Of a stretch of 64,000 bases of DNA, positions 10,393 through 36,731 are shown one piece after another. The DNA comes from Pseudobacteriovorax sp. GTDB taxonomy: Bacteria; Bdellovibrionota_B; Oligoflexia; Oligoflexales; Oligoflexaceae. Within the stretch, counting starts at the first letter, position 1, and each line of letters begins with the position of its first letter. The DNA is taken from the NCBI GenBank assembly GCA_013215145.1, contig JABSRP010000040.1, positions 1-64,000 on the forward strand. Reading direction: 5' to 3'. Made by a program: the position numbers and the translations under genes. The notes beneath the pieces are model-generated. The model did no database searches, was not told the origin of the DNA, and saw only the letters and a list, made by a program, of their open reading frames with translations.

Positions 10393-10393
10393 C

Positions 10394-11962: not shown

Positions 11963-12337
11963 AGTCGACAAATCTACCACTTGGTTGAGCTGGGCTTTTT
12001 CAGCAGGCTGTGGGTTCTCATATTCGAAAAGCTCCGGGACTTGGCTTCCAACGGTTTCAGTTTTCGTTTGGAAAGACCTGTTCGAAACATCAAAGTGCTG
12101 CCTCTATTTGAAAAGCCTCTCTTCTTCAAGCGACGGGCCGCTTGAAACGTTCCATAGATGCGAACTTTTCGTTTTGGTAGAGCAAGAGACAAATATTTTA
12201 GCGGGATAGTTTTTTTAGCACCGAATAACTGCAACGTAACAATAACCTCAAACACATATCGGTAAGCTCAGTATCCTTTATACTATGACACAGTTTTTGA
12301 CCAGTAACGAGAGGATTATGAGCGAGAGCCTTTTAAT
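11963..12337. other. Gene-free stretch, convergent 3' region
   Basis: This 375-base stretch lies between the convergent GH44-like and coiled-coil genes. Two overlapping open frames exist (plus 11952-12209 and minus 11974-12255). Neither has a ribosome binding site, and their products look like low-complexity or highly basic noncoding translation. No terminator with a T tract was found. Confidence 0.5.
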
Positions 12338-12943
12338 CTAAGAGGACTCACTCTTTTTGGCGTGATTACCCTCGACCTCGACACCATCTAACGATACGGA
12401 AACAGCTGATTCTTGTTGGTTGTGTTGCTTTACCGAATCACGAATCTTTTCGGCATACTCATTGGCTGCCTTCGATCTCAGGCCTTCGGTCTGCCTGGGC
12501 TCTTCAGATTCGCCGCTGGCTGCCATCGCCAAGTCGTGCTTTACTTGACGCGTTTCCTCTAAATCAGTCAATAAGGCGTGTATAGACTCTTTTCTTTGGT
12601 TGATCATGATCTCTAGGTCTTCGATCTCGGCATCCAATTTTCGGATACCTTCTTCAAGGTGCTCTTCTTTAATCTCAGCGTCTTTCAAGATATCGACGAC
12701 CTGAATGTCTGTAGATTCGAGAGTTTCCTTGATAACTGCCGCTAAAACCCGCATATCACCATCAGGTATGCGTTTCATCAAACGAATAGCGTCCTCGATT
12801 CCATAGGACTTTTTCATGGCTGCTTTTTGCGCAGGCTGCTGAGGCGGCGGCACAACCTCCCGTTTCGAGAGTCTGGGCATTTGAGGCACGCCACTGGGCT
12901 TTGGCAAGCGAACCATTGCGTCATCTCTTTTTTTTCCAGACAA
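12338..12943 (-). CDS. Hypothetical coiled-coil protein with TTG start
   Basis: The 201-residue protein is cytoplasmic and mostly helical. An N-terminal basic, Pro-rich segment (about residues 11-40) is followed by a helical domain and an obvious coiled coil (about residues 85-145, EEGIRKLDAEIEDLEIMINQ). The C-terminus is charged. The TTG at 12943 is chosen because a perfect AAGGAGG lies six bases upstream. The ATG nearer to that sequence is out of frame and too close. I do not recognise the family; a cytoskeletal or regulatory role is a guess. Confidence 0.65.
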   Translation of the reverse strand: MSGKKRDDAMVRLPKPSGVPQMPRLSKREVVPPPQQPAQKAAMKKSYGIEDAIRLMKRIPDGDMRVLAAVIKETLESTDIQVVDILKDAEIKEEHLEEGIRKLDAEIEDLEIMINQRKESIHALLTDLEETRQVKHDLAMAASGESEEPRQTEGLRSKAANEYAEKIRDSVKQHNQQESAVSVSLDGVEVEGNHAKKSESS

Positions 12944-13134
12944 GACATACCTCCTTTACTTCGACCATAGGGTCATCGGCATCCTCGGTCATCCATTCAA
13001 CTTTTTTTTATAACTAACTAAATTAATTAATTAATCTATTTCGTATTATGGCCGGCAAAGACCATACCAATTGGACTGTTTCTCGCCTCCCTTGCGCCAA
13101 CAATTGCAGGCATTTCTTGCGTAAAATTGTGACC

Positions 13135-13148
13135 TAGGCTATAGCCTA
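13135..13148. promoter_or_regulatory. 14-bp perfect palindrome upstream of sufE
   Basis: TAGGCTATAGCCTA is a perfect inverted repeat about 30 bases before the sufE start and 18 bases before its ribosome binding site. Its position suits an operator or a small leader hairpin. No known regulator consensus is matched with certainty. Confidence 0.4.
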
Positions 13149-13178
13149 AGAAGGTCCGGTGTTGTAAGGAGACGATTG

Positions 13179-13619
13179 TTGACTATTTCTATGACAGAGA
13201 AAAAAGATGCACTGCTGGCGGCGATGAACGCACTGCCAGGCAAAGATGATAAGCTAAAGTTCATTATCGATAAAGGCAAGGCCATGGAAGCTATGCCCGA
13301 TAAGTTTAAAATCGATCAATTTCTTGTAAAAGGCTGTATATCCAGGGCTTGGCTATTTCCTCAACTAAAAGGGGATAAAGTCACGTTTTTTGCCGATTCG
13401 GAAGCCTTTATTGTCAAGGGAATTATTGCTCTGCTTCTAGAAATATACAACGACAGCAGTCCCGCAGATATTCTTACTGAAGATGGGAGCTTTCTCCTGG
13501 AGGCTGGGGTCACCCAACACCTATCTACTAACAGAAGAAATGGGCTTTCAAACGTACTAAACATGATACAGAGTTATGCAGCTGCATTTCAGAAAACTAA
13601 TCAGGAAACGTTATCATGA
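13179..13619 (+). CDS. sufE: SufE family sulfur acceptor protein
   Basis: SufE accepts persulfide sulfur from the SufS cysteine desulfurase for Fe-S cluster assembly. The family pattern is clear: LVKGCISRAWL holds the active-site Cys (Cys53 from this start). Further matches are FIVKGIIALLL and GVTQHLSTNRRNGLSNVL. The length of about 146 residues is normal. Two consecutive TTG codons (13176, 13179) lie four and seven bases after AAGGAG. The ATG at 13191 lacks a ribosome binding site, so a TTG start at 13179 is preferred. The gene overlaps the DAHP synthase gene by four bases (ATGA). No sufS or sufBCD is in the window. Confidence 0.9.
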   Translation: MTISMTEKKDALLAAMNALPGKDDKLKFIIDKGKAMEAMPDKFKIDQFLVKGCISRAWLFPQLKGDKVTFFADSEAFIVKGIIALLLEIYNDSSPADILTEDGSFLLEAGVTQHLSTNRRNGLSNVLNMIQSYAAAFQKTNQETLS

Positions 13620-14956
13620 ACAAAGCTTGGACGCCAGACTCGTGGCGCAATCTTCCCATAATGCAGCAACCTCAGTATGACGATAGCTCGGTATTGTCTT
13701 CGGTTCTATCGGATATCTCCAAACTGCCTCCTCTAGTTTTTGTAGGTGAGGTGGAAACCCTGAAGAGTAAAATCGCGTCGGCTGCAAGAGGCGACTCATT
13801 TATCCTGCAAGGTGGTGACTGCGCAGAGAAATTTGAAGACTGTTCGGCGTCGGTTATTACAGCTAAACTCAAAATTCTCCTTCAAATGTCTGTGGTCCTC
13901 TGCTACGGGGCGAAAAAACCAATCGTAAGGATCGGAAGGATTGCCGGTCAGTACGCGAAACCTAGATCCAATGACACGGAAGTGGTGGATGGCGTCGAGA
14001 TTCCTGTCTATCGCGGGGATATCATCAATTCTTATGAAGCAAGCCAAGAGAAGCGAAAGCCTGATCCTAAACGGATCAAGCAAGCTTATCTGTTAGCGTC
14101 TGCTACGCTCAACTATATTCGCGCCCTGACTAAAGGCGGCTTCGCCGATTTGCATAACCCCCAAAACTGGGAGTTAGAGTTCGTCTCTAAAGCACCAAAA
14201 AAGGACGAATATCAAAAAATTGTTTCCAATATTCAAGATGCCATCAACTTTATGGAATCCCTGGGAACAAGAGAAGACAGCCTCCATTCGGTTGAATTCT
14301 ACACCTCTCATGAAGGCCTCCTTTTGCCTATGGAGGAAGCACTTACAAAATACGAGCCCGCCTACGATGCTTGGTACAACCAAGGCGCGCATATGCTGTG
14401 GATCGGTGATCGTACCCGAGCGTTAGACGGCGCTCACATAGAGTATTTTCGCGGCATAGCAAACCCGGTGGGTTTAAAGATAGGTCCCAGCGCAAACCCA
14501 AGAGATATCGTAGCCACGGTAAAAGCTTTGAATCCAAATAACGAAGCAGGAAAAGTCACTTTAATTGGCCGTTTTGGTCATGACAAGGTCAAGCAACACC
14601 TTCCTAAATTCGTAGAGGCAATTCAGCAAGAATCTCTAAATGTCTTGTGGAGCAGCGATCCGATGCATGGCAACGCCAGCAAAACGGAATCAGGTATCAA
14701 GACGAGAGACTTCGACAGCATCCAGTCTGAGTTGAAGGACTCCTTTGCAATCCATAAGAGTCTAGGTAGCTTTCTGGGAGGAATTCATTTCGAACTCACA
14801 GGAGAGGATGTAACCGAATGCATCGGTGGCACCGCTGGGATCACTGCTGATCAGCTTGAGTTGAAGTACGAAACGTTTTGCGATCCAAGGCTCAATTACA
14901 GCCAGAGCTTGGAAATGGCCCTACTTGTTTCCGAGATGCTCGCCTCACAAAAATAA
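13616..14956 (+). CDS. Class II 3-deoxy-7-phosphoheptulonate (DAHP) synthase
   Basis: This enzyme condenses phosphoenolpyruvate and erythrose 4-phosphate, the first step of the shikimate pathway. The 446-residue length and the motifs LQGGDCAEKF, VRIGRIAGQYAKPRS, SSDPMHGN and GGIHFELTGEDVTECIGG identify the class II (plant/AroH-like) family, which is unrelated in sequence to E. coli AroG. They supply the metal and substrate ligands, so the enzyme should be active. The start overlaps the sufE stop by four bases, implying translational coupling. Regulation by aromatic amino acids is known in the family but cannot be judged here. Confidence 0.95.
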   Translation: MNKAWTPDSWRNLPIMQQPQYDDSSVLSSVLSDISKLPPLVFVGEVETLKSKIASAARGDSFILQGGDCAEKFEDCSASVITAKLKILLQMSVVLCYGAKKPIVRIGRIAGQYAKPRSNDTEVVDGVEIPVYRGDIINSYEASQEKRKPDPKRIKQAYLLASATLNYIRALTKGGFADLHNPQNWELEFVSKAPKKDEYQKIVSNIQDAINFMESLGTREDSLHSVEFYTSHEGLLLPMEEALTKYEPAYDAWYNQGAHMLWIGDRTRALDGAHIEYFRGIANPVGLKIGPSANPRDIVATVKALNPNNEAGKVTLIGRFGHDKVKQHLPKFVEAIQQESLNVLWSSDPMHGNASKTESGIKTRDFDSIQSELKDSFAIHKSLGSFLGGIHFELTGEDVTECIGGTAGITADQLELKYETFCDPRLNYSQSLEMALLVSEMLASQK

Positions 14957-14961
14957 GGCGA

Positions 14962-14978
14962 AGGGCCTCGAGGGCCCT
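14962..14978 (+). terminator. Possible terminator hairpin after DAHP synthase
   Basis: A six-bp GC-rich stem (14962-14967 with 14973-14978) with a five-base loop starts six bases after the stop codon. The following sequence has only scattered T residues, so termination may be weak or Rho-dependent. Confidence 0.4.
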
Positions 14979-15104
14979 CAAATCTTCCCCAATCCAAATT
15001 ACCAGATGTAACTTTAGATAAATATTACGATATCAACAATTGTTTGAGTTTTTCCTTACTTGTACCGAAAAGTATTGATCTAAAAAAACGTGAGGACAAG
15101 GATA

Positions 15105-16253
15105 ATGATGCGTAGCAGATGCGGTGGCATGTTGGTGGTGCCATTACTATTAGGATTACTCAGCTCTTGTAATGATTCTTCATTTTCTGGAAAAAAAGCA
15201 TTAGGCGATGAAGCAGACCCACCTAAAGTGGCCGAAGCTATCCCCGAAACACCACCGGTTGTGGTGACAACCGTAGATGAGGAAGACAACCTTGCTGTCT
15301 CAGAGTACCCGTTCGGGGAACCTGATCCTGCGGTGGATTATCTTTTTGTCATCGATAATTCGGTGTCTATGGGTCCGATACTGGCCGATGTTAACAAAGG
15401 CTATGCGTCGATTGTCGGGACGAACTCGTTTCCGCCTAATTCTAAAGTAGCTGTCATGACAACCATGATTGGCGACCCCGTCGACTTCGCAAAAACTCAT
15501 TCATCGGTGGCCACATACACTTTTATAGAGAACGAACCTGGCTTCCTGAATTTCGTCGACAAGGCAAGTATTGATGCTTTCGTTGCCCTAGACGCAGATT
15601 TCGCAAACGACTTTCCCGTAGCTGGTTGTGCCAACAAGTGGTTTTCGCCTGAAGACGTAAACGCCGATGGGGTACCTTGCCTACTAGCAGCAACGCAATC
15701 GGTTTTTTCAGCTTTGATTTCAGAGCCGGGCATACATGCCTTTCAGCAACTTCTTCTTAAGCATGCCGGGACTCCGCTGTTTCGAGAAAACGCGCTTCTC
15801 AACGTCATCTTTGTGTCGGATACCCATGATCCTGGTGTGGATAACGCGGACCTCAAAGCCGCAACTCCCGTCTACAACGAGCTTGTGACGATGGCAAATG
15901 TAGATAATAAACTCAGAAACGTGAAATTTCATGCGCTGGCCCCTGAAGTCCAATGTACTGGCGAGGGAACTCACGACTTTTCCTACTTTACGCTAGTCGC
16001 AGCATCTGCAGGACTCAAGCAAGATCCTTGCGCAACAGATGACTACCAAGCATTTCTGAAAGCAATGATCGAAGCTAGCGTTATCGATGCTCCCAACTTT
16101 AACCTAGAGTACTCTGCGACTCAAATCAAAGAGGTGCTAGTTGATGGTGTCGCGACAACTGAGTTTACGGTAAGTGAGGATGGGAAAGCCATTTCCATTC
16201 CTAGCCTTGATCCCAAAACTCCCGTCACCGTTCAAGTGGTTTACTCAATTTAG
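15105..16253 (+). CDS. VWA-domain lipoprotein
   Basis: The product has a lipoprotein signal with lipobox LLSSC about 20 residues from the start and a Pro/Glu-rich linker. A von Willebrand factor A-like domain then opens with DYLFVIDNSVSMG, an intact DxSxS metal-ion-dependent adhesion site. Later segments (LNVIFVSDTHDPGV) fit the central strand of that fold. Cysteines between about residues 180 and 310 probably form disulfides. A short beta-rich C-terminal domain follows. AAGGA lies just before ATG codons at 15105 and 15108; the upstream GTG at 15090 is less likely. Role: surface adhesion or protein interaction, inferred from the family. Confidence 0.78.
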   Translation: MMRSRCGGMLVVPLLLGLLSSCNDSSFSGKKALGDEADPPKVAEAIPETPPVVVTTVDEEDNLAVSEYPFGEPDPAVDYLFVIDNSVSMGPILADVNKGYASIVGTNSFPPNSKVAVMTTMIGDPVDFAKTHSSVATYTFIENEPGFLNFVDKASIDAFVALDADFANDFPVAGCANKWFSPEDVNADGVPCLLAATQSVFSALISEPGIHAFQQLLLKHAGTPLFRENALLNVIFVSDTHDPGVDNADLKAATPVYNELVTMANVDNKLRNVKFHALAPEVQCTGEGTHDFSYFTLVAASAGLKQDPCATDDYQAFLKAMIEASVIDAPNFNLEYSATQIKEVLVDGVATTEFTVSEDGKAISIPSLDPKTPVTVQVVYSI

Positions 16254-16303
16254 TGAGCAGAACCATTTGTAAGACTCTAGAGGCATCCACTCTATGGTTG
16301 CCA

Positions 16304-16729
16304 TTACTCTCCGGGAGCCATAGGCAAATCTGGCAGTTTTCTTTCACCCACATCAAAGTCTTCTTCCTTTTGAGGCTCTTTAGGCTTTGCTACCTGTTTT
16401 TTCCCCGATTTGTCTAGCCCGCGACAATCCAAGTAGCTCCAGTCTCGGACTAAGCCTTCTTTGTCCAATTGCAGCTCAGAAGTGCAGACTTTTTTGATCA
16501 CGGTTTCTGATAAAGGCTCCTGCTCTAACACCAAGATATCTTTAAAACGAACGGTGCGGCCTGATGTTTTGGGCAAATTATAGTCTGGTTCTCCCCACTT
16601 TCCCTTAATAAACTCAAAAGACATGTCCGTCAAACCACTGATTTCGGGACGATACTTTGCTTCAGGAACTGTTTCACAAGCAAGATTTCCGAGCAAAACG
16701 ACCGTCAAGGACAAGATGGGAGTTTTCAC
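16304..16729 (-). CDS. Small lipoprotein of unknown function
   Basis: From GTG at 16729 the protein is 141 residues with a clear lipoprotein signal (KTPILSLTVVLLGNLAC, lipobox GNLAC). The mature part contains FEFIKGKWGEPDYNLPKTSG and a beta-rich stretch, somewhat like the small BamE/SmpA lipoprotein fold (GxPD-type turn). The C-terminus is Lys/Pro/Glu-rich. The GTG is preferred over a TTG four codons upstream because TGGAG lies six bases before it. The BamE resemblance is weak and only a suggestion. Confidence 0.65.
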   Translation of the reverse strand: MKTPILSLTVVLLGNLACETVPEAKYRPEISGLTDMSFEFIKGKWGEPDYNLPKTSGRTVRFKDILVLEQEPLSETVIKKVCTSELQLDKEGLVRDWSYLDCRGLDKSGKKQVAKPKEPQKEEDFDVGERKLPDLPMAPGE

Positions 16730-26099: not shown

Positions 26100-27443
26100 T
26101 CACTGAGAGCCCACTGATGAGATTTTAAACTGCCCAGGCTGTAAATTATGTCTAGCCATCAACTTGTAGAAATCAGTCCGGTTGCGTTTGGCAGCACGAG
26201 CCGCCTGACTAACGTTTCCTTTGGCCTGTTTCAGTACTTGAATCAGATACTGGCGCTCAAACTCTGATTTGGCATCTGCGAGAGACGGTTGTGGTTTGAC
26301 ATCATCGGGAATAAGTTGATCTCTAACAGACCCTTCCGAGATCACAGACGAGGTTGCTAGGACAACCAACTTTTCAATCACAGTATATAGCTGGCGGATA
26401 TTCCCTGGCCAGTTGGCTTGGCAAATGAGTTCCAAGGCTTTTGGAGAGAAGGTTTTGACTCGGGGTCGGTTACGACTGGCGATTTTCTGTAGGAAATGCT
26501 TGGCGAGAATAGAAATATCCTCTCGTCTTTCCGATAGCGCCGGTAAACCAATACTGATGACATTGATCAGATAATATAGATCTTCTCTAAAGGCCCCATC
26601 TTGGACTTCGCGAGCTAAGTCCTGACGTGTGGCAGAGATGACTCTGACATCCAAATTCGCTTGATGTCCACTACTACCGTTAGCTCTGAATCCCCGATCA
26701 TCTAAAACCCGAGACAACTTACCTTGGATAGCAGACGGAAGCATGTCGATTTCCTTAAGAAAGATCGAGCCCCCTTTAGCTAAAGCTAACGCTCCTCGAT
26801 TGTCTCTGGTACCATCACCGAACAGCTCAAGGTTTAAGGCCTCTTCATCTTGGTGAGAGCAACTAACGGATATAAAGGGGCCGTAATTGCGACGAGATCC
26901 GGCATGCAACGCTTTCGCCAATATGTCCTTACCGGTACCAGCATCACCGCGAATTAGAACGTGGCTCTCAGATTGCGCAACCAGCTTGGCTTTCTTTAAG
27001 ACTTCCTGCATGACAGGACTTTGGGTCAAAATCTCTGAGGCCCATGCCTTCGGCGATTGGCCATTTTCTTTTCCGCTCTGCGGCAAAGCCTTCTCGATGA
27101 CCTTGAACAGAGTTTCTTTTTCAATGGGCTTGGGTAAAAAGCTGAAGACACCTTTTTGCGTGGCTTCCACAGCCTCTGGAATCGTACCATGGGCCGAAAT
27201 GATAATAACGGGAAGATAAGGTCGTCGTTGTCTAACCTCTTCAAACAGTGTCATACCATCAATCTCATCCATTCTGAGATCGCTGATAAGCAGATCTGGT
27301 TCGAAGATATCGATCTTTTGCAAACAGCTGGCACCGCTTTCCGCAGTATCGACAATATATCCTACCGAACTGATTCGCATTTTTAACAGTTGTAGTAGAC
27401 CCTCATCATCATCCACTAGCAGTATTTTTGCTTTGTTACTCAT
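26100..27443 (-). CDS. glrR: GlrR-like AAA+ response regulator lacking GAFTGA
   Basis: From the ATG at 27443 (GAGGAG upstream) the 447-residue protein has a receiver domain (Asp55), an AAA+ domain with Walker A GDAGTGKD (165-172), and a Fis-type helix-turn-helix. The C-terminus (GNVSQAARAAKRNRTDFYKLMARH) matches enterobacterial GlrR closely. The order kinase-lipoprotein-regulator also matches glrK-yfhG-glrR. Unlike usual NtrC-family activators, the GAFTGA loop is absent: ELFG is followed by DGTRDNRGALALA. The Walker B Asp is also replaced (IFLKEID, Lys230). It may therefore not remodel sigma-54 polymerase and could act with another sigma factor or as a repressor. Confidence 0.88.
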   Translation of the reverse strand: MSNKAKILLVDDDEGLLQLLKMRISSVGYIVDTAESGASCLQKIDIFEPDLLISDLRMDEIDGMTLFEEVRQRRPYLPVIIISAHGTIPEAVEATQKGVFSFLPKPIEKETLFKVIEKALPQSGKENGQSPKAWASEILTQSPVMQEVLKKAKLVAQSESHVLIRGDAGTGKDILAKALHAGSRRNYGPFISVSCSHQDEEALNLELFGDGTRDNRGALALAKGGSIFLKEIDMLPSAIQGKLSRVLDDRGFRANGSSGHQANLDVRVISATRQDLAREVQDGAFREDLYYLINVISIGLPALSERREDISILAKHFLQKIASRNRPRVKTFSPKALELICQANWPGNIRQLYTVIEKLVVLATSSVISEGSVRDQLIPDDVKPQPSLADAKSEFERQYLIQVLKQAKGNVSQAARAAKRNRTDFYKLMARHNLQPGQFKISSVGSQ

Positions 27444-27456
27444 GTCCACTCCTCTT

Positions 27457-27951
27457 TTAACGGGCAACTCTATCGGTTCGTTCCTGAATCTCTTTTTCAA
27501 TCGTTGACAGCGCTCTCAATTTGTCTTTGAGCTTTACAGTTTCTTTTCGTCGCGAGTCAGCAACTTCAAAAAGCTTGTAGGAACGTCGTACACTTAATAA
27601 AAACCATTGTATGGCTAAGCTGGATTCTTCATCAAGGTCTTCACGTCTAGAAATTTTTTCAAAAAGAGCGATGCTTTCCTTATAACTCTTTTCATTTTGG
27701 GGCCGAAGACCAGTCAGCAAGGCGATTTTAAAGTCTGTTTCCCAAGTCTTATCTACCCGTTTTTGTTTCAGAATTGACAATTCTGAAGCGATCTCATCGT
27801 CAGGCTTAACCATAATATTATTGGCATATCTGATCCAGTAAGATAGGTTACTTTTTGGCTGATAACCTGTCTCTTTTAAGACAACAACTGGCTTTGTTAC
27901 ACAACTTTGAGCCAAGTATAGTGAAGCTAACAAAAAAGCTAAATATTTCAT
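27457..27951 (-). CDS. QseG/YfhG-like lipoprotein between glrK and glrR
   Basis: From the ATG at 27951 the 164-residue protein has a lipoprotein signal with lipobox LAQSC and a helical mature part. Its position between the kinase and the regulator is the same as that of yfhG (qseG) in enterobacteria, whose product is an outer-membrane lipoprotein that interacts with the kinase. The start overlaps the glrK stop by four bases (ATGA) with AGGAG upstream; glrR begins 13 bases after its end. Sequence similarity to QseG is not obvious beyond the lipoprotein and helical character, so the name rests on context. Confidence 0.75.
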   Translation of the reverse strand: MKYLAFLLASLYLAQSCVTKPVVVLKETGYQPKSNLSYWIRYANNIMVKPDDEIASELSILKQKRVDKTWETDFKIALLTGLRPQNEKSYKESIALFEKISRREDLDEESSLAIQWFLLSVRRSYKLFEVADSRRKETVKLKDKLRALSTIEKEIQERTDRVAR

Positions 27952-29399
27952 ATAGGCTCCTGACAAAGGGTGGTTTGCGGCAACTTTATCTGAAGGTGCG
28001 CGCCAATGCGCGATTTAAGAATCGCTAGTTCACCCTGATGAGATTCGACACATTCCCTAGCCACAGAAAGACCAAGACCGGTTCCCTTGAGAGGACCCTG
28101 CTTTTTAGCGGTTCCTTGAAAAAACGGTAAAAACACCTTTTCCTGTTCCTCAGTGGGTATCCCTGGACCAGTGTCTTTCACCGCGATAACGAGAGTCTCC
28201 CCTTCAGCAGCATCTACCAAGTCCCAACTAACCTCAACATACCCACCTTCAGGAGTATAATGAACCGCGTTGGAAATAAGGTTATCCAAAGCGGCTTTAA
28301 TCACAGATCGGTCGACATTAACCGTTAGCTCTGCGCCCCGCAGCTTGATACCAATATTTTTGCGGTCTGCAGTTAATAAATGAGCATTAATGGTATCCTG
28401 CACCAGATCACTAACGGAATGATGAGCTTTTTGTAGGGTGTTCTCCCGGGTCATGAGATTGAAATCCAGAAGGTTGTTTATCAAACTCTGGAAGGAATCA
28501 ACCCCTTTACTCAAGATGCCAAGGACCTCCATTTGGCTTTGATTTAGCTTACCCGGAATCTGATCTTCCAGTAGTTCTGTGGCTTCTTTAATCGTCGACA
28601 ATGGTGTTTTCAGCTCATGAGAAATATGACGCAAGAACCGCATTTTTTCTTCGTTGGTCTCGGCTAACTGCTTTCCCAGCCAAGTTAATCGTTTGGCAAC
28701 AGTCTGCAAGTCTCGAGGCCCTTGGATATCAATGCGATGATTAAACTCCCCTTCGCCTAGTCGTCTGATCGCCTTATCAATCTGCTTAAGAGGTTTGAGA
28801 ATCAAAACCATAAAAATCAAAATTAAAAATATCGTGAGAGGTATCAGAGTTACCGCATATGCGACCAACTCAGTGCTCACTTTTTCTGCACGGTCTTTCG
28901 CATGGTTCACACGACTGTTTAGAAACAATGAAACTTCGTTTCGCAGAGTTTTAGCCAAGAAAAACAGTCTCTCAAATCGCGCCAACTCCCCCTTAAAAGC
29001 TTCTGGTTTTGCCTTTAAATCATTGATGGTGGGATGCATGAGATCAACTTCGCCGATCATGATTTCAGCAAGAGGAGAGACTTTATCGACATTGGTTTCC
29101 GAGAGTTTTAAAAGCGACTCACGAACAGAAACATAAGTATCATTGAAGACTCCAAGAAGTTCTTCTTCCTTGAGAAGCTGATACTGCCTTGCCGCCCTCT
29201 CAAGATCGATAAGCTCACCATGAATGGTTTCGCTTTCTTCCGTCAGCAAGACAATAGACGAGGTATCGCGCTCGTGTCGCTTAGCCATGCTGCCAAGAGA
29301 CTCAAAACTTCGCACCAATCCAATCAAGAGCGGCAGCAACACAACCAAGAAGCCGATCAAAACTAAATGTAAAATTGTAGGTGGTTGGATCCGTTTCAT
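27948..29399 (-). CDS. glrK: GlrK-like sensor histidine kinase
   Basis: The 483-residue kinase has a transmembrane segment at about residues 10-28, a helical periplasmic domain to about 178, and a second transmembrane segment (181-200). A HAMP linker follows, then the phospho-acceptor His261 in RHISHELKTPLS, an N box (DNLISNAVHYTP) and G boxes (DTGPGIPTEEQ, GTGLGLSVA). It heads the operon glrK-lipoprotein-glrR. In enterobacteria the homologous system controls the small RNA GlmY and envelope functions; the target here is unknown. All catalytic motifs are intact. Confidence 0.9.
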   Translation of the reverse strand: MKRIQPPTILHLVLIGFLVVLLPLLIGLVRSFESLGSMAKRHERDTSSIVLLTEESETIHGELIDLERAARQYQLLKEEELLGVFNDTYVSVRESLLKLSETNVDKVSPLAEIMIGEVDLMHPTINDLKAKPEAFKGELARFERLFFLAKTLRNEVSLFLNSRVNHAKDRAEKVSTELVAYAVTLIPLTIFLILIFMVLILKPLKQIDKAIRRLGEGEFNHRIDIQGPRDLQTVAKRLTWLGKQLAETNEEKMRFLRHISHELKTPLSTIKEATELLEDQIPGKLNQSQMEVLGILSKGVDSFQSLINNLLDFNLMTRENTLQKAHHSVSDLVQDTINAHLLTADRKNIGIKLRGAELTVNVDRSVIKAALDNLISNAVHYTPEGGYVEVSWDLVDAAEGETLVIAVKDTGPGIPTEEQEKVFLPFFQGTAKKQGPLKGTGLGLSVARECVESHQGELAILKSRIGAHLQIKLPQTTLCQEPI

Positions 29400-29574: not shown

Positions 29575-32337
29575 TTATTTGAACGAAAATGGGTTGTGGC
29601 ACTGCTCGCAGTTGTCAAAACGAGAGCTAGCATGACTTGGCGTCGTCACACTTTGTGCATCGGCCGCATGGCAACCGATACAATCAATTGGTAGGGCTTG
29701 ATAATTGCCCTGATTGTGACAGCTTCGACAGTCCGTAAGGCGGTGAGCTCCGCGAAGTGGAAATTGCGTCAAATCATGGCTAAATGTTGTTGCATGCCAA
29801 AAGTTTTGCGTATGACAGTCCTGACAGGGCTGTAAAAAGCCGTTGTGCGGATCATCTTGGCTATGACACACAGTACAATCGTCGCTAGCGCCTTTTAACA
29901 CACGATCGTTGATGTGACACTCATCACAGCCCAAGAGCAGATGCACTCCTTTAAGGGTGAAGTCGCGATGGAAGTTATCTGCATTCTCCCAACCGGCTTC
30001 GGTGTGGCACTTGGTGCAACGAGCACCGTTTGCTCCTTTATGTGGATCCGTATGACAAGCAGCGCAATTTTTAGTCTTCAGTTCGGGAAAGGCAAATTTT
30101 CCTTTCCTATTTTTCGGCCCCTGCTTAAATCGTTTTTTAGTTGGAACGTGACATTCCTTACAATCGACTTTCTTATGCTTGTATCTAAGCTTAAAACGTG
30201 TCTTATTGTGATCAAAAGGCTTTCTTTGTGTCCAGTTTTTCGTCACATGGCATTCCGCACAAGGCTTAGAATAAAACTTCTTACGGAACATATCCTTGTG
30301 TTCGTTGACGTGACAGTTTTCGCAGAATCCCTTATTTTTGCCCGGAAATTGGAATTTATGAGCAACCTTAGGTGGGTTTGTCGGTAGTTTTTTATTTGTT
30401 TTCACATGGCATTCGAAGCAATTATTTTTGATCTTCGCATGTTTACCCGTTAACTTGAAGTCAGTAAGGTTGTGATTGAAAGGCTTCCGCTTTTTGAAGT
30501 TTACCGTAGTATGGCACTCGCGACAGGATGTCTTGGCAATAAACTCTTTGCTAAATTGATTTCTATGAACGTTCGTATGACAGTTTTCACAATAGCCTGC
30601 TTTCGCATATTTAAAGATGAATTTGTGTGCGACTTTAGGAGGCTTCGTCGGGAGCTTTTTCTTTGTCGGAATATGGCATTTTACGCAGTTGTTTGCGATC
30701 TTTTTATGGGCCCCAGTGATTTTGTAGTCTGTGGTATTGTGATTGAAAGGCTTCCTTTTCACGAAATCGTTGGTGGTGTGACAGACAGCACAGGGCTTTG
30801 CCGCGAACTCTTTTGAGAATTGCTTTTTGTGAACGTTCACATGGCAGTTGTCACAGAAGCCTCGTTTAAAGCCTGGGAACTTATAAACTTCTTTTCCTTT
30901 TACCACATGACAAGACTTGCAATCCTGTTGAGCATGCTTTCCCGTTAACGGGAATCTCGTCTTATTGTGAAAGCTTTTATCCCCCCGTAACATACTACTG
31001 GCAGCCTTGATTTCCCAACCCTTAGGAGTATGGCAATTGGCACATTTTACACCTTTAAACCGCTGGTGAAACTCTTTAGAATGCGGACTACGATGACAGA
31101 CCTCGCAGGTTTTTTGAGGTAAGTTCGCGAAATGATACTTTCTTAACGTATTCGGTGGACCAACTTTCTTTCCTGATTGAGTGACATGACAATCAAAACA
31201 CTGATTTTTTTTGTGTTTGCCGTCAATAGGAAACCTAGTTTGGGTGTTATGATTGAATTTAAGGTCTTGTTTCCATGAGTTTTCCATGTGACACTGAGCA
31301 CAGTTATCTAAAGGACCAAGACGCGGGGATTTTCTGTTACCGAAGCCATGATAATCGGCGTGACAAGACTTACAATCCTGATTCAATCCCACCCAGCGAT
31401 AATCGCCTTTCTTAGAACGATTCACAGAACTTGACTGCTTATGACAGTCGATGCAATTGGTACGAGCGTGGGCACCTCTGAGGGGAAAGGTTGTGACTTT
31501 GTGGTTGAAGTTCTTTATGGGCCATTCTATTTGGTTATGACAGGTAGCGCAATTACCACCTCGGAACTTAGGTGAGAGATTGGTTTTGTGTTGATCCACA
31601 TGGCAGGTTAAGCACTTTTTCGTTTTTAATTCAGGAAAATCGTACTTGGCGGATGCCTTACCTTTAGGAGCGTGGCACTTTTCGCAGGAAATTTTGCTAT
31701 GAGTGCCAATCAGAGCGTAACCAGTTTCCTTCTTGTGATCAAACTCTTTAGCTTGCTTCCAATCTACAACGTTATGACAGGTACTACACTCAACCTTAGC
31801 AAACTTACCTTTGAAAAAGTGAATATCGTCGTCCATATGACAACTTTTGCAGGAGTCCGACGTTCCGAAGAATCGGATCTCATTTTGCCTAATCTTTTTT
31901 TTCGTCCGTTTTTGTGTATGACATTCAGCGCATTCTACTCCCTTGTGTCCGCCTTCAAGCTTAAAACCAGTCCTATTATGGTCAAAGTTTTTTTGATCGA
32001 AGCGTACAGCGTTGTAGTCTCGGCCTTTATGATCCTTGTGACAATCAATACAGTCTTTTCCACCCATTAAGCCGTGAAAGCTCTGTTTAGATAGTACCTG
32101 TTTTTTGATTCCAGTATGACAATCCATACACAATTTGTTAGGGACACCACCTGCCGGTTCGTGACACTTCAAACAGTCCTTATGCTCGAGATGTTCATGA
32201 CCTTTCATAAGAGGACCAGGGGCAAGGAGCTTGTTCAATAGCCCTTCAAATTTCTTTGAATCACTCTGTTGCTGCGTCCAACCCGGCTGACTGAACATCA
32301 TGAGCAGTATCAATCCTATGATTTTACTAAAGCTCTT
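29575..32337 (-). CDS. Secreted 33-haem c-type cytochrome
   Basis: I count 33 CxxCH haem-attachment motifs over about 920 residues, all intact. The TTG at 32337 is the likely start: AAGGA lies nine bases upstream, and it gives a signal peptide (LKSFSKIIGLILLMMFSQPGW). Longer starts would run into the preceding gene. The mature protein is rich in Lys and His. Many spacer His residues (FNHN, FDHN, KPFNHN) recur at regular intervals and can act as distal haem ligands. Modules of about 65-80 residues with CENCH, CxECH and a PPKVAHKF linker repeat in tandem near the middle. It should be a long periplasmic or extracellular electron wire. It overlaps the end of the beta-barrel gene by 11 bases. Confidence 0.93.
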   Translation of the reverse strand, partial: KSFSKIIGLILLMMFSQPGWTQQQSDSKKFEGLLNKLLAPGPLMKGHEHLEHKDCLKCHEPAGGVPNKLCMDCHTGIKKQVLSKQSFHGLMGGKDCIDCHKDHKGRDYNAVRFDQKNFDHNRTGFKLEGGHKGVECAECHTQKRTKKKIRQNEIRFFGTSDSCKSCHMDDDIHFFKGKFAKVECSTCHNVVDWKQAKEFDHKKETGYALIGTHSKISCEKCHAPKGKASAKYDFPELKTKKCLTCHVDQHKTNLSPKFRGGNCATCHNQIEWPIKNFNHKVTTFPLRGAHARTNCIDCHKQSSSVNRSKKGDYRWVGLNQDCKSCHADYHGFGNRKSPRLGPLDNCAQCHMENSWKQDLKFNHNTQTRFPIDGKHKKNQCFDCHVTQSGKKVGPPNTLRKYHFANLPQKTCEVCHRSPHSKEFHQRFKGVKCANCHTPKGWEIKAASSMLRGDKSFHNKTRFPLTGKHAQQDCKSCHVVKGKEVYKFPGFKRGFCDNCHVNVHKKQFSKEFAAKPCAVCHTTNDFVKRKPFNHNTTDYKITGAHKKIANNCVKCHIPTKKKLPTKPPKVAHKFIFKYAKAGYCENCHTNVHRNQFSKEFIAKTSCRECHTTVNFKKRKPFNHNLTDFKLTGKHAKIKNNCFECHVKTNKKLPTNPPKVAHKFQFPGKNKGFCENCHVNEHKDMFRKKFYSKPCAECHVTKNWTQRKPFDHNKTRFKLRYKHKKVDCKECHVPTKKRFKQGPKNRKGKFAFPELKTKNCAACHTDPHKGANGARCTKCHTEAGWENADNFHRDFTLKGVHLLLGCDECHINDRVLKGASDDCTVCHSQDDPHNGFLQPCQDCHTQNFWHATTFSHDLTQFPLRGAHRLTDCRSCHNQGNYQALPIDCIGCHAADAQSVTTPSHASSRFDNCEQCHNPFSFK

Positions 32338-33676
32338 CAAATGTTGGTGTCCTTCTCCGAATGGGTGACGTTGCCTCTGTTCCAAAACGATAGCCAATCA
32401 TAAACATAAACGAAGATATCGATCGATCTTCTGCTGAAGACTGGCTATAACCCAAAGAACCCCTTGTTTTATCAGATAAATAGAATCCTAATTCAGTGCC
32501 TATGGTACTTGGGTTAAATTCCTCTCCCGAGTCGGATTTTTCTTGCTCCTGGGTATAACTCACCAAAAAATCCCAGCTCTTACTATAGTAAGACGCTTGG
32601 GTATAAATGTAGGTATCGTCACTTAAAAAATCGTCTTTGATACCATATCGGAGCGCTAGAGAAAGTCTCTTCTTTAACAAACCGTTATAACTGATCCCTA
32701 CATAATAGTGCTGAGATGATAGACCATCGATAGATCGCTTGGCGTTGCCATAAAATACCCTGGATTGTAATGATTTATTGATTCTGTACTGATAGGTAAG
32801 CCGTGCAGCAGTCAGAGTACTTGGTTCCAATTCGTCTCTTATCTCTCGATTGATCCGGTAGTCTTCCGCGGTGATTCTGTTAGCCGTGATTCTAACACGA
32901 TGCCGTGCACTGTAATATGCGTAAGTTAAAAAACCTCGTCTTAGGTTGGACGATGGAGCTAGGTCGGTATCAATCAGAGTACTTATTCGATGTTTCAATC
33001 CGAGATTAAACACACCTTGATGAAAAAAGAAAACACGGTTGATAAATTCGTTTAATTCAAAACTCGGCGCCTGAGCTACGCTGTTGGTCATATAGGTACT
33101 TGTCCCATCCATTCCTCCTTTTTTTTCATAAACTAGAAACGCGCCACCCTGATTACCGTCAAACCCTCTGACGTCTGGGTTAATACTTGCCGGCGTAACA
33201 ATATCTTCTGCTGCCAATCCAAGAAATCCAACTAATCTGAGGTTTTTTGTAAATCGATAGCCATAACTTCCGCCGTCGTTGGCAATGATTCCCGCTTCTG
33301 AGACAGAAAATCGGCCAATTTCGAAAAAGGAACGATTCCGCTCCCAAGGTCTTTTATAGGCTGCTTCTCTGACCTGTAGAGTATTTTCTGCCTCCAGGGA
33401 CTGTATCTCAGACTGTGACTTTCCAAAGAAATCATAGCGATCCCTAGCATCGACGCTAATATAATCATCCTTACGTGTCAGTCCATCCACATCCATTTTG
33501 AGTCGAGACGAAAGGACTTGGATATCATTGGTTTCACCCTGGATGTCGCCTGGGAAATCTACCTTACTGCTCACACCTCCAATCCGCGCACTTCCGGAGT
33601 ACTCGGCCGCACTTAGAGGAGTGCTAGCTAGCATTAAGAGGGCAGAACATAGATATAGGCAACAAGATTTCATCAT
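32327..33676 (-). CDS. Outer-membrane beta-barrel protein of the cytochrome operon
   Basis: The roughly 449-residue protein has a signal peptide (ALLMLASTPLSAA-EY). The mature part shows alternating aromatic/hydrophobic and polar residues with short turns, typical of outer-membrane barrels. Late strands such as RVFYGNAKRSI, SLALRYGIK and FMFMIGYRFG support this. The length could make a barrel of about 18-22 strands. It contains no CxxCH motif. It lies between a dihaem lipoprotein gene and the 33-haem cytochrome gene, so it is a candidate sheath or pore for the cytochrome, by analogy with MtrB-type porins. No sequence match to MtrB (its N-terminal CxxC) is seen. Confidence 0.8.
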   Translation of the reverse strand: MMKSCCLYLCSALLMLASTPLSAAEYSGSARIGGVSSKVDFPGDIQGETNDIQVLSSRLKMDVDGLTRKDDYISVDARDRYDFFGKSQSEIQSLEAENTLQVREAAYKRPWERNRSFFEIGRFSVSEAGIIANDGGSYGYRFTKNLRLVGFLGLAAEDIVTPASINPDVRGFDGNQGGAFLVYEKKGGMDGTSTYMTNSVAQAPSFELNEFINRVFFFHQGVFNLGLKHRISTLIDTDLAPSSNLRRGFLTYAYYSARHRVRITANRITAEDYRINREIRDELEPSTLTAARLTYQYRINKSLQSRVFYGNAKRSIDGLSSQHYYVGISYNGLLKKRLSLALRYGIKDDFLSDDTYIYTQASYYSKSWDFLVSYTQEQEKSDSGEEFNPSTIGTELGFYLSDKTRGSLGYSQSSAEDRSISSFMFMIGYRFGTEATSPIRRRTPTFEEL

Positions 33677-33700
33677 CAATTCACTTACGAGTCGACATGA

Positions 33701-33922
33701 TTATATGGGGTCCCAAGTTGGAAATTTATGACATTGCACACAATCTCCAGCAGTCGGATGAGGCGCCGGAGGTCTCGTATCCGCATGACAAACGTTACAC
33801 TCCGTGAAAGTGCTATGACTCAAACGCTGAGATGGTGATTGCAATGTCTCAAAAGCCTCCGGTGTACGATTACCGCAGCCGAAGGCAAGAATATTTATCA
33901 TCACGATCACAAACCATTTCAT
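33701..33922 (-). CDS. Small dihaem c-type cytochrome lipoprotein
   Basis: This 73-residue protein has a lipoprotein signal (lipobox LAFGC, Cys16) and two haem motifs, CNVCH and CVQCH, separated by a Pro/His-rich linker. It would be anchored on a membrane facing the periplasm and carry electrons between the inner-membrane donor and the large cytochrome. The ATG overlaps the flavoprotein stop by four bases (ATGA). It is among the smallest dihaem proteins one could expect, and complete. Confidence 0.85.
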   Translation of the reverse strand: MKWFVIVMINILAFGCGNRTPEAFETLQSPSQRLSHSTFTECNVCHADTRPPAPHPTAGDCVQCHKFPTWDPI

Positions 33923-35265
33923 CCGGCTTTCACGGCCTCCCCATGTTTTGTATCAATTTTGACTCCTAGGCTCTCCAAAAATTTGAACGGCAATTCGGCT
34001 CCCGCAAAAATAAACAAGTAATCATTTTGGAGTCTTAGTTTCTGTCCATCCTTATCCACAACTACGTGATCAGGCTGAACCTCGGTCACAGAGGTATTCC
34101 ACGAGATCACAACTTGTTTTTTTTCGGCCATCTCGAAGATGATCTTTTGATTCTCTTCGTTGCAGCGATCAAGTTGATCCCCTCTGACCAGAAGGAATAC
34201 TTTATTGCGGCGGCTTGGTTTTGCCAGATACTGAGCGGCCTCGACTCCTGCATTACCACCACCTACAACGGCTATCCATTGACCCTGGTACTGATCAGGA
34301 TCCAAAAGATTGTAAGTCACCTTTATGGATTCTTCATTTGGGACTCCTAGTTTTCTCGGACTCCCGCGAACACCCATGCACATGATGACTTTTTTTGCTT
34401 TGATGATACCGTCACTGGTTTCCACATGGAAAATACCACTCTGCTTCGAGAGATTGATAAATTTGACGTTCTCTTTAATTCTCAGTTTTTTCTGTTTCCT
34501 TACCCCATTCCAGACAGCAAGAATCTCTTCTTTGGAGACTTTATTCTTTGGAAATTTGATGGGCCCAATTCCAGGTAATTCTAGAGGGTAAGACATGACG
34601 ACCTTTTGTTTGGGGAAGTTATAAATGGTTCCGCCAAACTTTGCTTGCTCGATGCACAAATAATTAGCACCAACCGATGCCGCCGCTAGAGATGCGGCCA
34701 ATCCAGCCGGACCTGCGCCTACAACAAGAATGTCGACATCGGCCTGCCCGTTGACACTGCCCGCGCTTTTTGCGGCATGTTCGACTGCCGTCTTTCCTTG
34801 CTTCACAGCGTTTCGAATCAACCCCATCCCCCCGAGCTCACCCGCAATGTACAGCCCGGTGACATTAGTCTCAAAGTGAGAGTTAATCCGAGGAAGTTGC
34901 ATTCCCCTTTCCTTGGTCCCGAATACGAGTTTGATCGCATCCATAGGGCAAGCCACCTCACACTCCCCATGGCCAACACATTTCGTTGGCTCAATGAGAA
35001 CGGCTTTGTGGTTGATTAGCTTGAGGATTTCACCTTCAGGGCAAGCCGATACACAGGCACCGCAGCCACTACATAGTCGTGGGTCGATCTGAGGATGCAG
35101 CGTCATAGGCTGATCCATCTTTTTTTCTTGGGTATCTTTCCATTTTCTCTTAGCGACTTGCTGTTCTTTTTCCCGCTTTCTTACGCCATGCCAGCTCAGA
35201 TAAACGAAAAACAAGACCCCAAATAGCCAGAGGTATTCCGTAAAATAATAATACAGCTTAACCAT
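33919..35265 (-). CDS. Membrane-anchored ferredoxin-FAD-NAD(P) oxidoreductase
   Basis: The 448-residue protein has one N-terminal transmembrane segment (about 8-24). A dicluster ferredoxin region follows, with C65-C68-C71-C75 and then C96-xx-H99-xx-C102-xxx-C106, the usual Cys at 99 being His. Next comes a thioredoxin-reductase-like part with FAD motif DILVVGAGPAGLA (about 178-190) and NAD(P) motif AVVGGGNAGVEAA. A segment before the FAD motif (NVTGLYIAGELGGMGLIRNA) resembles the C-terminal FAD-binding signature of such enzymes, as if permuted or duplicated. No CxxC redox disulfide is seen in the NAD domain. It should pass electrons between NAD(P)H, FAD and Fe-S at the cytoplasmic face, feeding the neighbouring cytochromes. 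Confidence 0.87.
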   Translation of the reverse strand: MVKLYYYFTEYLWLFGVLFFVYLSWHGVRKREKEQQVAKRKWKDTQEKKMDQPMTLHPQIDPRLCSGCGACVSACPEGEILKLINHKAVLIEPTKCVGHGECEVACPMDAIKLVFGTKERGMQLPRINSHFETNVTGLYIAGELGGMGLIRNAVKQGKTAVEHAAKSAGSVNGQADVDILVVGAGPAGLAASLAAASVGANYLCIEQAKFGGTIYNFPKQKVVMSYPLELPGIGPIKFPKNKVSKEEILAVWNGVRKQKKLRIKENVKFINLSKQSGIFHVETSDGIIKAKKVIMCMGVRGSPRKLGVPNEESIKVTYNLLDPDQYQGQWIAVVGGGNAGVEAAQYLAKPSRRNKVFLLVRGDQLDRCNEENQKIIFEMAEKKQVVISWNTSVTEVQPDHVVVDKDGQKLRLQNDYLFIFAGAELPFKFLESLGVKIDTKHGEAVKAG

Positions 35266-35389
35266 GTCACCCTCTAAGTCTTCTGAATACCGTTTCGTCA
35301 GATTTAAGGAAACATTTAAGCTATTTGAATCACAATAAAAGGAAAAAGCACAGGCGGAGTAGACGGATGGACGTTGTTCCTAAACACCA

Positions 35390-36250
35390 TCAGTGCACCT
35401 TGAAGATTAGCGAAGAAATTATATGAATGATTGCTACTATATACATAAAAACTGCAAAAGGCGTGTGAAATGTTCTCCAATAGCCGAACAAAATTTTATA
35501 GTAGTGCATAAAAATCATTTTTCGCTTAAGAATCGCCCATTCCCTCAATTTTAGCCTAATGGGGCGTCCGCCTCCCCAAGGGGTCTCGGGAAGCCGCAGT
35601 TGAGTGTTGATCTCACCTTTGGTAGCTCTGACAACGAACTCTAATAAACCGATATTTTTTAGTTGGGCTGCGGTAACGCCACCCGTAGCTTGGTAGAAAG
35701 CAACCGCCTTAGCTTGGTTCAGATCACCCTCGCTGAGACCTCGACTCGACATTTTAATGTAATTATCAAAACCCACTTCGTACCCCTCAAGGGCCGATTT
35801 TAACGAACTTTTTTGATGCAGTAGCTGAAGATAGAAATAACGGCCTACGATTCCACTTGCGAAGCTGATCACCATACTCCAGAAACTGATACTCACCAGT
35901 CCACTGACCTGAAAGTCACAGTGAAACAGCACCAAAGTGGGTCCCATCAATCCAAAAAATATGTGCCAGTCCAGCCAACGTTGAAGTTGACCAACCTTCT
36001 GCAAAACATGCCAGCGCTTACGGATAATGTATACGTTGGTCAGGGCCATGACGCCAAATCCCAACCAACCAAAAAAGTAAGAAACGGGACGCCCAGGCCG
36101 TGGATCAAATCGTCCGCAGTCATCGGAGAGGAAGCACTGCAACCCATCCAAGAAACCACGATGCTGATAGTACCCATGAGCTCCTAAATATTCATAAAAA
36201 AGCCAGACTGTTATGATTATCCAAACAACAGTGAGGGATTTCAAGGTCAT
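35390..36250 (-). CDS. Membrane protein with cytochrome-b-like His pairs
   Basis: This 286-residue protein has about six hydrophobic segments. Two helices carry paired His residues: WHIFFGLMGPTLVLFH and HTPFAVFMYIVAIIHII. The spacing of about 13 residues is right for binding b-type haems across a bilayer, as in cytochrome b561 or ferric reductase-like proteins. A periplasmic loop near the N-terminus has two Cys (LQCFLSDDCG). It is the first gene of the cytochrome operon and precedes the ferredoxin-flavoprotein by about 125 bases. It could move electrons across the inner membrane to the dihaem lipoprotein. The family is not identified with certainty. Confidence 0.78.
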   Translation of the reverse strand: MTLKSLTVVWIIITVWLFYEYLGAHGYYQHRGFLDGLQCFLSDDCGRFDPRPGRPVSYFFGWLGFGVMALTNVYIIRKRWHVLQKVGQLQRWLDWHIFFGLMGPTLVLFHCDFQVSGLVSISFWSMVISFASGIVGRYFYLQLLHQKSSLKSALEGYEVGFDNYIKMSSRGLSEGDLNQAKAVAFYQATGGVTAAQLKNIGLLEFVVRATKGEINTQLRLPETPWGGGRPIRLKLREWAILKRKMIFMHYYKILFGYWRTFHTPFAVFMYIVAIIHIISSLIFKVH

Positions 36251-36302: not shown

Positions 36303-36332
36303 TAATCCAAAGTGTATTACGAGGTAAAGAGT

Positions 36333-36731
36333 ATGAAAAGGTTGGCATTCCTTGGGCTTCTGCTATGTTTCTGCATGGGCTACGGCAGCAAAAATGAGAT
36401 TTGTAAGACAGATGAAGAAACATTATGCGCAAACACTACCGATACGGTTAAAAACTGCCTACAAAGTTCATTCGACAAAATCAAAGATGAAGCTTGTCGA
36501 AAAAAGCTCCAAGAGACTAGGGAGACTTGGCAGAAAAAGGCGGAGAGCTACTCCAAAGTAAAGCCCATCTGCGAAAAAGATGTTAAAGCCCTTTGTCCTG
36601 AAAGTATAAATTCGCCAAAAGATTTTAAAGTCTGCCTCATGATGAAGTCAGAAAAAATATCGGCCCCATGCAAAGCTGCCATGAATCAGCACATCAAAGA
36701 GCATTTGCCAGGCTTCAAATCCATCCCCTAG
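36333..36731 (+). CDS. Cysteine-rich secreted repeat protein
   Basis: From the ATG at 36333 (GAGG about eight bases upstream) the 132-residue protein has a signal peptide (RLAFLGLLLCFCMGYGS). Two repeats of about 55 residues follow, each with the pattern C-xx-D-xxx-LC ... CL ... C (ICKTDEETLCA and ICEKDVKALCP). This resembles the Cys-rich repeat of the GLG1 family found in secreted bacterial proteins. It is probably disulfide-bonded in the periplasm. It is divergent from the multihaem operon and may share its control region. Function unknown. Confidence 0.75.
   Translation: MKRLAFLGLLLCFCMGYGSKNEICKTDEETLCANTTDTVKNCLQSSFDKIKDEACRKKLQETRETWQKKAESYSKVKPICEKDVKALCPESINSPKDFKVCLMMKSEKISAPCKAAMNQHIKEHLPGFKSIP

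Follow-up and report, generated by a model that had tools for sequence, protein, structure and literature searches.

Among the described porin-cytochrome conduits (PCC), those of type PCC3 combine a beta-barrel porin with a many-haem periplasmic cytochrome, a large extracellular multihaem cytochrome and an inner-membrane protein (IMP). In the parts of He et al. 2017 available to us (PMC5566968), this IMP has about 300 amino acid residues with two WX3HX13H motifs and an SGxxG motif, a signature of the PCC3 and PCC4 inner-membrane proteins, and the PCC3 cytochromes have a median of 26 residues per haem. A pangenome study of the Gallionellaceae reports, in its available text, periplasmic PCC3 cytochromes with 21, 24 or 27 haems, all multiples of three (PMC10734462). 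As far as their accessible parts go, later papers retain four components with no flavoprotein (PMC10734462, PMC12016527, PMC12442390, PMC13386937 and PMC8788666). Here, we describe a row of five minus-strand genes at positions 29575-36250 of a 64,000-nucleotide stretch of Pseudobacteriovorax sp. DNA (the window; contig 89 within an assembly of 7.39 Mb), which encodes a PCC3-like IMP, a ferredoxin-flavoprotein (Fd-FP), a small putative lipoprotein, an outer-membrane beta-barrel and a 33-haem cytochrome.

Comparison of the gene cluster with described conduits

The window IMP (35390-36250, 286 residues), a putative b-type cytochrome, shows two WX3HX13H motifs (W92/H96/H110 and W258/H262/H276) and an SGxxG motif (S132-G133-x2-G136). 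The cytochrome (29575-32340, 921 residues) contains exactly 33 CxxCH motifs, as a preliminary description of the locus had counted; this gives 27.9 residues per haem versus the PCC3 median of 26, and a haem number that is a multiple of three, as in PCC3. The protein is predicted to be periplasmic, and the structural model of the barrel protein (32327-33676) shows 22 strands. The cluster differs from PCC3 in that a dedicated Fd-FP of NAD(P)H type (33919-35265, 448 residues) belongs to it, and in that the window encodes a lipoprotein with two CxxCH motifs (33701-33922, 73 residues) instead of a large extracellular multihaem cytochrome. The hosts also differ, being Bdellovibrionota and others versus the Alpha-, Beta- and Gammaproteobacteria of PCC3. 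Because the large extracellular cytochrome is absent from the window and the comparison with proteobacterial PCC3 was made on motifs and published descriptions, the cluster was not filed as PCC3; the best description is that of a PCC3-like conduit having an NAD(P)H donor of its own.

The claim that no known conduit matches the locus therefore holds in part: cytochromes of 21-27 and more haems beside a barrel are already known from PCC3, according to the available text, but the dedicated Fd-FP donor is new, as are the host range and the combination of a predicted eleven-module cytochrome with a 2-haem lipoprotein replacing the large extracellular cytochrome. No open-licence PMC paper was found in which a ferredoxin-flavoprotein accompanies a PCC3-like cluster, an absence that carries little weight, and none on Oligoflexus, Emticicia or Bdellovibrionales with multihaem cytochromes. 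Within their accessible text, PMC12016527, PMC12442390, PMC13386937 and PMC8788666 do not use the words "ferredoxin", "NADPH" or "flavoprotein"; the available part of PMC5566968 lacks "ferredoxin", "FAD" and "flavoprotein", its single "NADPH" concerning iron oxidation generally, and the ferredoxins mentioned in that of PMC10734462 are those of Rnf and CxxCH-bearing ferredoxins. Other PCC types and quinol oxidases are treated in the parts seen of PMC7399161, PMC4245776 and PMC6295460.

The MtrCAB, MtoAB and PioAB systems are similar in having a barrel and a periplasmic multihaem cytochrome. Assignment to the MtrB/PioB barrel family was rejected, as PF11854 matched neither the barrel protein nor any other in the genome, and so was assignment of the cytochrome to the decahaem MtrA/DmsE family (TIGR03508 score of 68.7 versus a cut-off of 192.2, and 33 haems rather than 10). 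In contrast to MtrCAB, the cluster contains no CymA-like gene, the genome not having been searched for one. The OmbB-OmaB-OmcB system of Geobacter has 8- and 12-haem partners, haem numbers that differ from those of the window cluster. Ferric reductases and NADPH oxidases resemble the IMP in the pattern of two HX13H pairs, which are predicted to bind b haems; however, the dehydrogenase is here a separate and non-homologous protein, and the acceptor of the IMP would be a c-type haem and not oxygen or Fe(III). Tandem tri-haem modules acting as a wire also occur in Geobacter GSU1996, a triheme c7 concatemer of 12 haems that is not known to have a barrel or Fd-FP partner.

The four-base overlap between the Fd-FP and lipoprotein genes and the 24-base gap between the lipoprotein and barrel genes agree with the preliminary description; nevertheless, the gap between the IMP and Fd-FP genes is 124 bases and not 125, and the barrel and cytochrome genes overlap by 14 bases, with a TTG start at 32340, since an overlap of 11 bases would make the cytochrome begin at a non-start codon. 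The barrel gene starts at an ATG, with an alternative TTG at 33679.

Conservation of the gene set

We searched 58 genomes of the class, that of the window included, with cut-offs of 1e-3 for the IMP, 1e-60 for Fd-FP and 1e-5 for the barrel; the IMP search used a single query sequence and had a lower sensitivity than the profile searches used for the other two. Each of the three was found in 12 genomes, all three in 11, a part of them in two and none in 45. There is some circularity, as profiles A1-A3, plus A4 in this barrel search, include family members that were rescored. The genome G030 shows the IMP only, on a contig of 4.3 kb, and six genomes of a sister family show a second Fd-FP and barrel.

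A scan of 84,980 species genomes gave 238 relatives, and the best 80 of the 238 provided the loci counted next. These were grouped as Bdellovibrionota-like or other from record titles and similarity, and phyla were assigned by title. Among the 30 Bdellovibrionota-like loci, 27 contain Fd-FP, 24 a barrel of the window family, 24 a cytochrome of at least 10 haems and 21 all of these; the respective numbers for the 50 other loci are 46, 37, 45 and 36, the Bacteroidota barrel profile having been built from 13 of the loci scored here. In all 33 loci flanked on each side by 9 kb or more, Fd-FP is present; Fd-FP, barrel and a cytochrome of at least 10 haems occur together in 15 of the 16 Bdellovibrionota-like and in all 17 of the other loci of this kind: 15 belong to Bacteroidota and one to each of Ignavibacteriaceae (L057) and Calditrichaeota (L059). 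Two Acidobacteriota loci (L053 and L084) have all parts, with flanks shorter than 9 kb. The preliminary description had made the conduit depend on the genes being conserved together in relatives, and they are, in 32 of the 33 loci with long flanks and, as regards IMP, Fd-FP and barrel, in the 11 class genomes. The window-type and Bacteroidota barrel families align with each other at E = 4.6e-14, a value that their common barrel character may inflate.

The loci read with the window order show IMP, Fd-FP, lipoprotein, barrel and cytochrome, and most Bacteroidota loci show IMP, Fd-FP, a 20- or 23-haem cytochrome, a second cytochrome and the barrel. Plasmid pEMTOL02 of Emticicia oligotrophica DSM 17448 (L104, 9785-18478) contains in a row the genes for IMP, Fd-FP, a 23-haem cytochrome, a 40-haem cytochrome and the barrel, beside ccsA, and given this plasmid copy the gene set may be mobile.

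Predicted features of the proteins and a barrel-less sister module

Shuffling the cytochrome sequence 2000 times left on average 0.36 CxxCH motifs and never more than 4, versus the real 33. Comparison of the surroundings of each haem motif with those n places on shows similarity peaks at n = 3, 6, 9 and 12, and the lag-3 similarity was reached by none of 1000 haem-order shuffles in each of nine cytochromes tested; therefore, on sequence grounds, we read the 33 motifs as eleven tandem tri-haem modules. The four PF14522 matches of the genome all lie within this gene, so with that family no other cytochrome of this class was found in the rest of the genome, and PF09699 gave 0 matches. Against the sequences of solved structures, the cytochrome had 0 matches at E 0.001.

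The N-terminal head domain of the cytochrome contains the motif PGPLxxGHxxLEH and the first haems, and was searched with a profile that was made from eight family members and covers the N-terminus as far as the fourth haem. Exactly one cytochrome has it in 67 of the 80 loci and two have it in none; it is absent from 13, of which 12 have one flank shorter than 9 kb and the other is the fully read L050. Head-bearing cytochromes have 24, 27, 30 or 33 haems in 20 of 23 Bdellovibrionota-like loci (the exceptions have 11 in L033, 21 in L049 and 6 in L047, where the contig end cuts the gene) and 20 or 23 haems in 42 of 44 elsewhere (19 in L094 and 22 in L089). Many relatives also show a headless cytochrome of at least 10 haems, and the headless complete frames with at least four haem motifs range between 4 and 67 haems. 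The 67-haem cytochrome, of 1674 residues, lies beside a 23-haem head-bearing one in L100, a metagenome-assembled genome (MAG) of Saprospiraceae.

The lipoprotein, whose lipobox LAFGC was judged by eye, shows two CxxCH motifs, as previously described, versus four in most relatives read, and is missing in two (L020 and L022) of ten fetched loci whose lipoprotein region was read. On account of this absence and of the head domain on the large cytochrome itself, the earlier proposal that the gene order follows the electron path was rejected.

The barrel model (pLDDT 83.2, pTM 0.75) has no separate plug domain, as judged from the order of elements and not from coordinates, and the structures most similar to it are porins and FimD-type ushers, with a query TM-score up to 0.51 among the matches listed. 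No match was found for the sequence in Pfam at E 0.1 or NCBIfam at E 0.01, nor any among solved-structure sequences at E 1. By the usual barrel formula, 22 modelled strands correspond to a backbone radius near 20 Å, which would leave little room to spare around a one-chain haem wire, if it fits at all. A pore able to hold a haem chain, the other point on which the conduit had been made to depend, is thus compatible with the strand number and the lack of a plug in the strand order, in so far as a predicted model can tell.

Fd-FP has a hydrophobic stretch at its N-terminus, Fe-S sites of the forms CxxCxxCxxxCP and CxxHxxCxxxCP, and FAD and NAD(P) domains similar to those of TrxR and YpdA. The hydrophobic stretch is found in 60 of 69 relatives of at least 420 residues (Kyte-Doolittle cut), the FAD motif GxGxxG in 73 of 73, and His, residue H99 in the window protein, instead of Cys as second ligand of the second Fe-S site in 72 of 73. 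At the first site, the second ligand is Cys in all 27 Bdellovibrionota-like loci and Ser, Thr or Gly in 42 of the 46 others. Only thioredoxin and bacillithiol reductases and AhpF match among solved-structure sequences at E 1e-10; the score against TIGR04018 (bacillithiol disulfide reductase YpdA/Bdr) is 152.7 bits, below the cut-off of 339.9, and Fd-FP differs from YpdA/Bdr in its two extra Fe-S sites.

The two histidine pairs described for the IMP correspond to H96/H110 and H262/H276, invariant in all 48 aligned relatives. Two WX3HX13H motifs are present in 46 of the 48, L033 and L046 lacking the first W, and SGxxG in all. No match was found in Pfam at E 0.1 or NCBIfam at E 0.01; against solved-structure sequences, one chance match at E 0.51 gave nothing useful, and three pattern matches in viral contigs were not relatives. 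For PCC3, five transmembrane helices are given as a feature of this protein. The model of the window IMP (pLDDT 92.2) shows six helices of at least 20 residues, with best 19-residue hydrophobicity means of 1.71, 1.48, 1.02, 1.76, 2.47 and -0.21; five are hydrophobic and probably transmembrane, and the sixth is not hydrophobic.

A plasmid search gave 53 records with an IMP of a sister type, and seven loci were read, in Methylophaga, Alteromonas, Bradyrhizobium, Variovorax, Spirosoma, Pontibacter and Methylocystis plasmids. The sister IMPs are homologous to the window type by profile (E = 5.5e-24, all four His aligned). In the seven loci, a gene annotated as 2Fe-2S or FAD/NAD(P) oxidoreductase precedes the IMP, and the head domain lies on a 7-haem protein following or near it, with a weak second match on a 3-haem frame in L106. 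The reductases belong to another family than Fd-FP, with FAD_binding_6, NAD_binding_1 and Fer2 domains (two proteins scanned; the others by annotation), and neither barrel profile matches in the seven stretches at E 1. Because the head domain recurs on the cytochromes of these barrel-less modules, the large cytochrome, rather than the lipoprotein, probably docks on the IMP, and the head may be its docking end. In the Alteromonas macleodii plasmid (L108, 5067-11786) the module lies beside hydrogenase genes, a neighbourhood that makes a low-potential electron route possible.

Immediately downstream of the window operon, at 26100-29399, are genes for a histidine kinase, a small lipoprotein and an NtrC-like response regulator, in a Glr/Qse-like order. 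The same three gene kinds follow the operon in L013, and different genes do so in L016-L023. Divergent from the operon, 36312-36731 encodes a small cysteine-rich protein, probably secreted and with no Pfam match; small genes resembling it by eye are located at the equivalent place in L013 and L014.

Proposed electron entry, direction and acceptor

The preliminary description proposed a conduit across the envelope that electrons enter in the cytoplasm from NAD(P)H, FAD and Fe-S, and the joint conservation of the genes and the 22-strand barrel model support it. We consider it somewhat better than an even chance that the cluster is a PCC3-like conduit fed by its own cytoplasmic NAD(P)H donor and working outward across both membranes. 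NAD(P)H would reduce the FAD of the membrane-anchored Fd-FP, whose two Fe-S sites would hand single electrons to two b haems of the IMP, acting like the membrane part of a ferric reductase or NADPH oxidase with a separate dehydrogenase protein. On the periplasmic side, the electrons would enter the 33-haem cytochrome at its N-terminal head and run along the eleven tri-haem modules, with haems presumably attached at the CxxCH motifs, first over the periplasm and then inside the barrel. From the outer end of this wire, perhaps with help from the lipoprotein, they would pass to an extracellular acceptor such as a mineral, humic matter, an electrode or a soluble oxidant. The main argument for NAD(P)H as donor is that two unrelated NAD(P)H reductases adjoin one IMP family.

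An outward conduit might instead be fed mainly by the quinol pool via the b-type protein, with Fd-FP in a regulatory or side role or as a quinone reducer. He et al. 2017 model the PCC3 IMP as quinone-active (PMC5566968, in the text available), and the PCC3 clusters of the later papers have four components and no flavoprotein in the parts available; nevertheless, Fd-FP is present in every locus with long flanks, and its position in the barrel-less sister modules is taken by an unrelated NAD(P)H reductase, which makes this explanation rather unlikely. Slightly less probable again is electron uptake, in which Fe(II) or a cathode would feed electrons inward, and Fd-FP would make NAD(P)H or the b-type protein would reduce quinone. 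Haem wires can conduct either way; however, electron transfer to NAD(P)+ from a donor of high potential is uphill when the membrane potential opposes it, and many carriers are Bacteroidota and Bdellovibrionota that are not known as iron oxidisers. PCC3 was discovered in iron oxidisers and depicted as carrying electrons to quinone from a donor outside the cell (PMC5566968, in part), but the PCC3 of Sideroxydans lithotrophicus ES-1 was not induced by Fe(II) in the available data of PMC8788666.

The least probable of the alternatives considered is that no extracellular transfer takes place, the haem wire being an electron store or reducing a soluble periplasmic or diffusing oxidant (candidates are peroxide, oxygen or a metal oxyanion; no acceptor gene is known) and the barrel being an entry pore. 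The sister module has no barrel of these families in seven stretches, and therefore the donor, IMP and cytochrome part can work inside the envelope. Against this, the barrel is retained in 32 of the 33 fully read loci, and complete head-bearing cytochromes have 11-36 haems in barrel-type loci versus 7 in the sister module.

Several observations weigh against a conduit fed by its own NAD(P)H donor. The genome G031 has Fd-FP, a 4-haem lipoprotein, a barrel and a 33-haem cytochrome, but no adjoining IMP, and both second-copy operons read are also without it; these operons (L112, 3859-9788, and L113, 5453-11673) encode Fd-FP, a barrel and a 36-haem head-bearing cytochrome, and may share the membrane protein of the first copy. 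In L050, the sole fully read locus breaking the pattern, IMP and Fd-FP are present and no barrel or head-bearing cytochrome was found; there (10001-16588) the IMP is followed by a frame of 1701 residues, rejected as a stand-in for barrel or cytochrome on account of its lipoprotein-like repeats, judged by eye, and of having no barrel-profile match. The NAD(P)-site pattern is found in 60 of the 73 Fd-FPs and not in all. Helix 3 of the IMP is weakly hydrophobic, with the mean of 1.02; the IMP model gave no match to solved structures at E <= 0.001 among 137 Foldseek matches, which are chance helical ones, and no Pfam match to Ferric_reduct (PF01794) was found, so the oxidase-like reading of the IMP rests on the histidine pattern. 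No biochemistry of this system was found in open-licence PMC papers. As far as the available texts show, He et al. 2017 draw the PCC3 IMP as quinone-linked (PMC5566968), the later papers that comment on the function of PCC3 call it untested, and both PCC3 clusters of ES-1 are down on Fe(II) (PMC8788666).

We give somewhat less than an even chance to a broader reading as a whole, which adds that several phyla use one head-docked wire, with tri-haem modules varying its length. The conduits of Geobacter, Shewanella and PCC3 are modelled, in the literature available, as exchanging electrons with the quinone pool, and a cytochrome b of PCC3 type coupled to its own NAD(P)H-type flavoprotein would make a quinone-independent route directly testable. 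If it is true, PCC3 would gain a likely donor and a direction. Candidate extracellular electron transfer is extended to Bdellovibrionota, many Bacteroidota and related MAGs, and close relatives of the gene set are co-located in bacteria of several phyla in which this kind of wiring has received little study; the carriers include a type strain, that of E. oligotrophica, with the whole set on a plasmid. The head domain followed by tri-haem modules provides a simple marker, with a natural length series of 7, 20, 23, 24, 27, 30, 33 and 36 haems among others.

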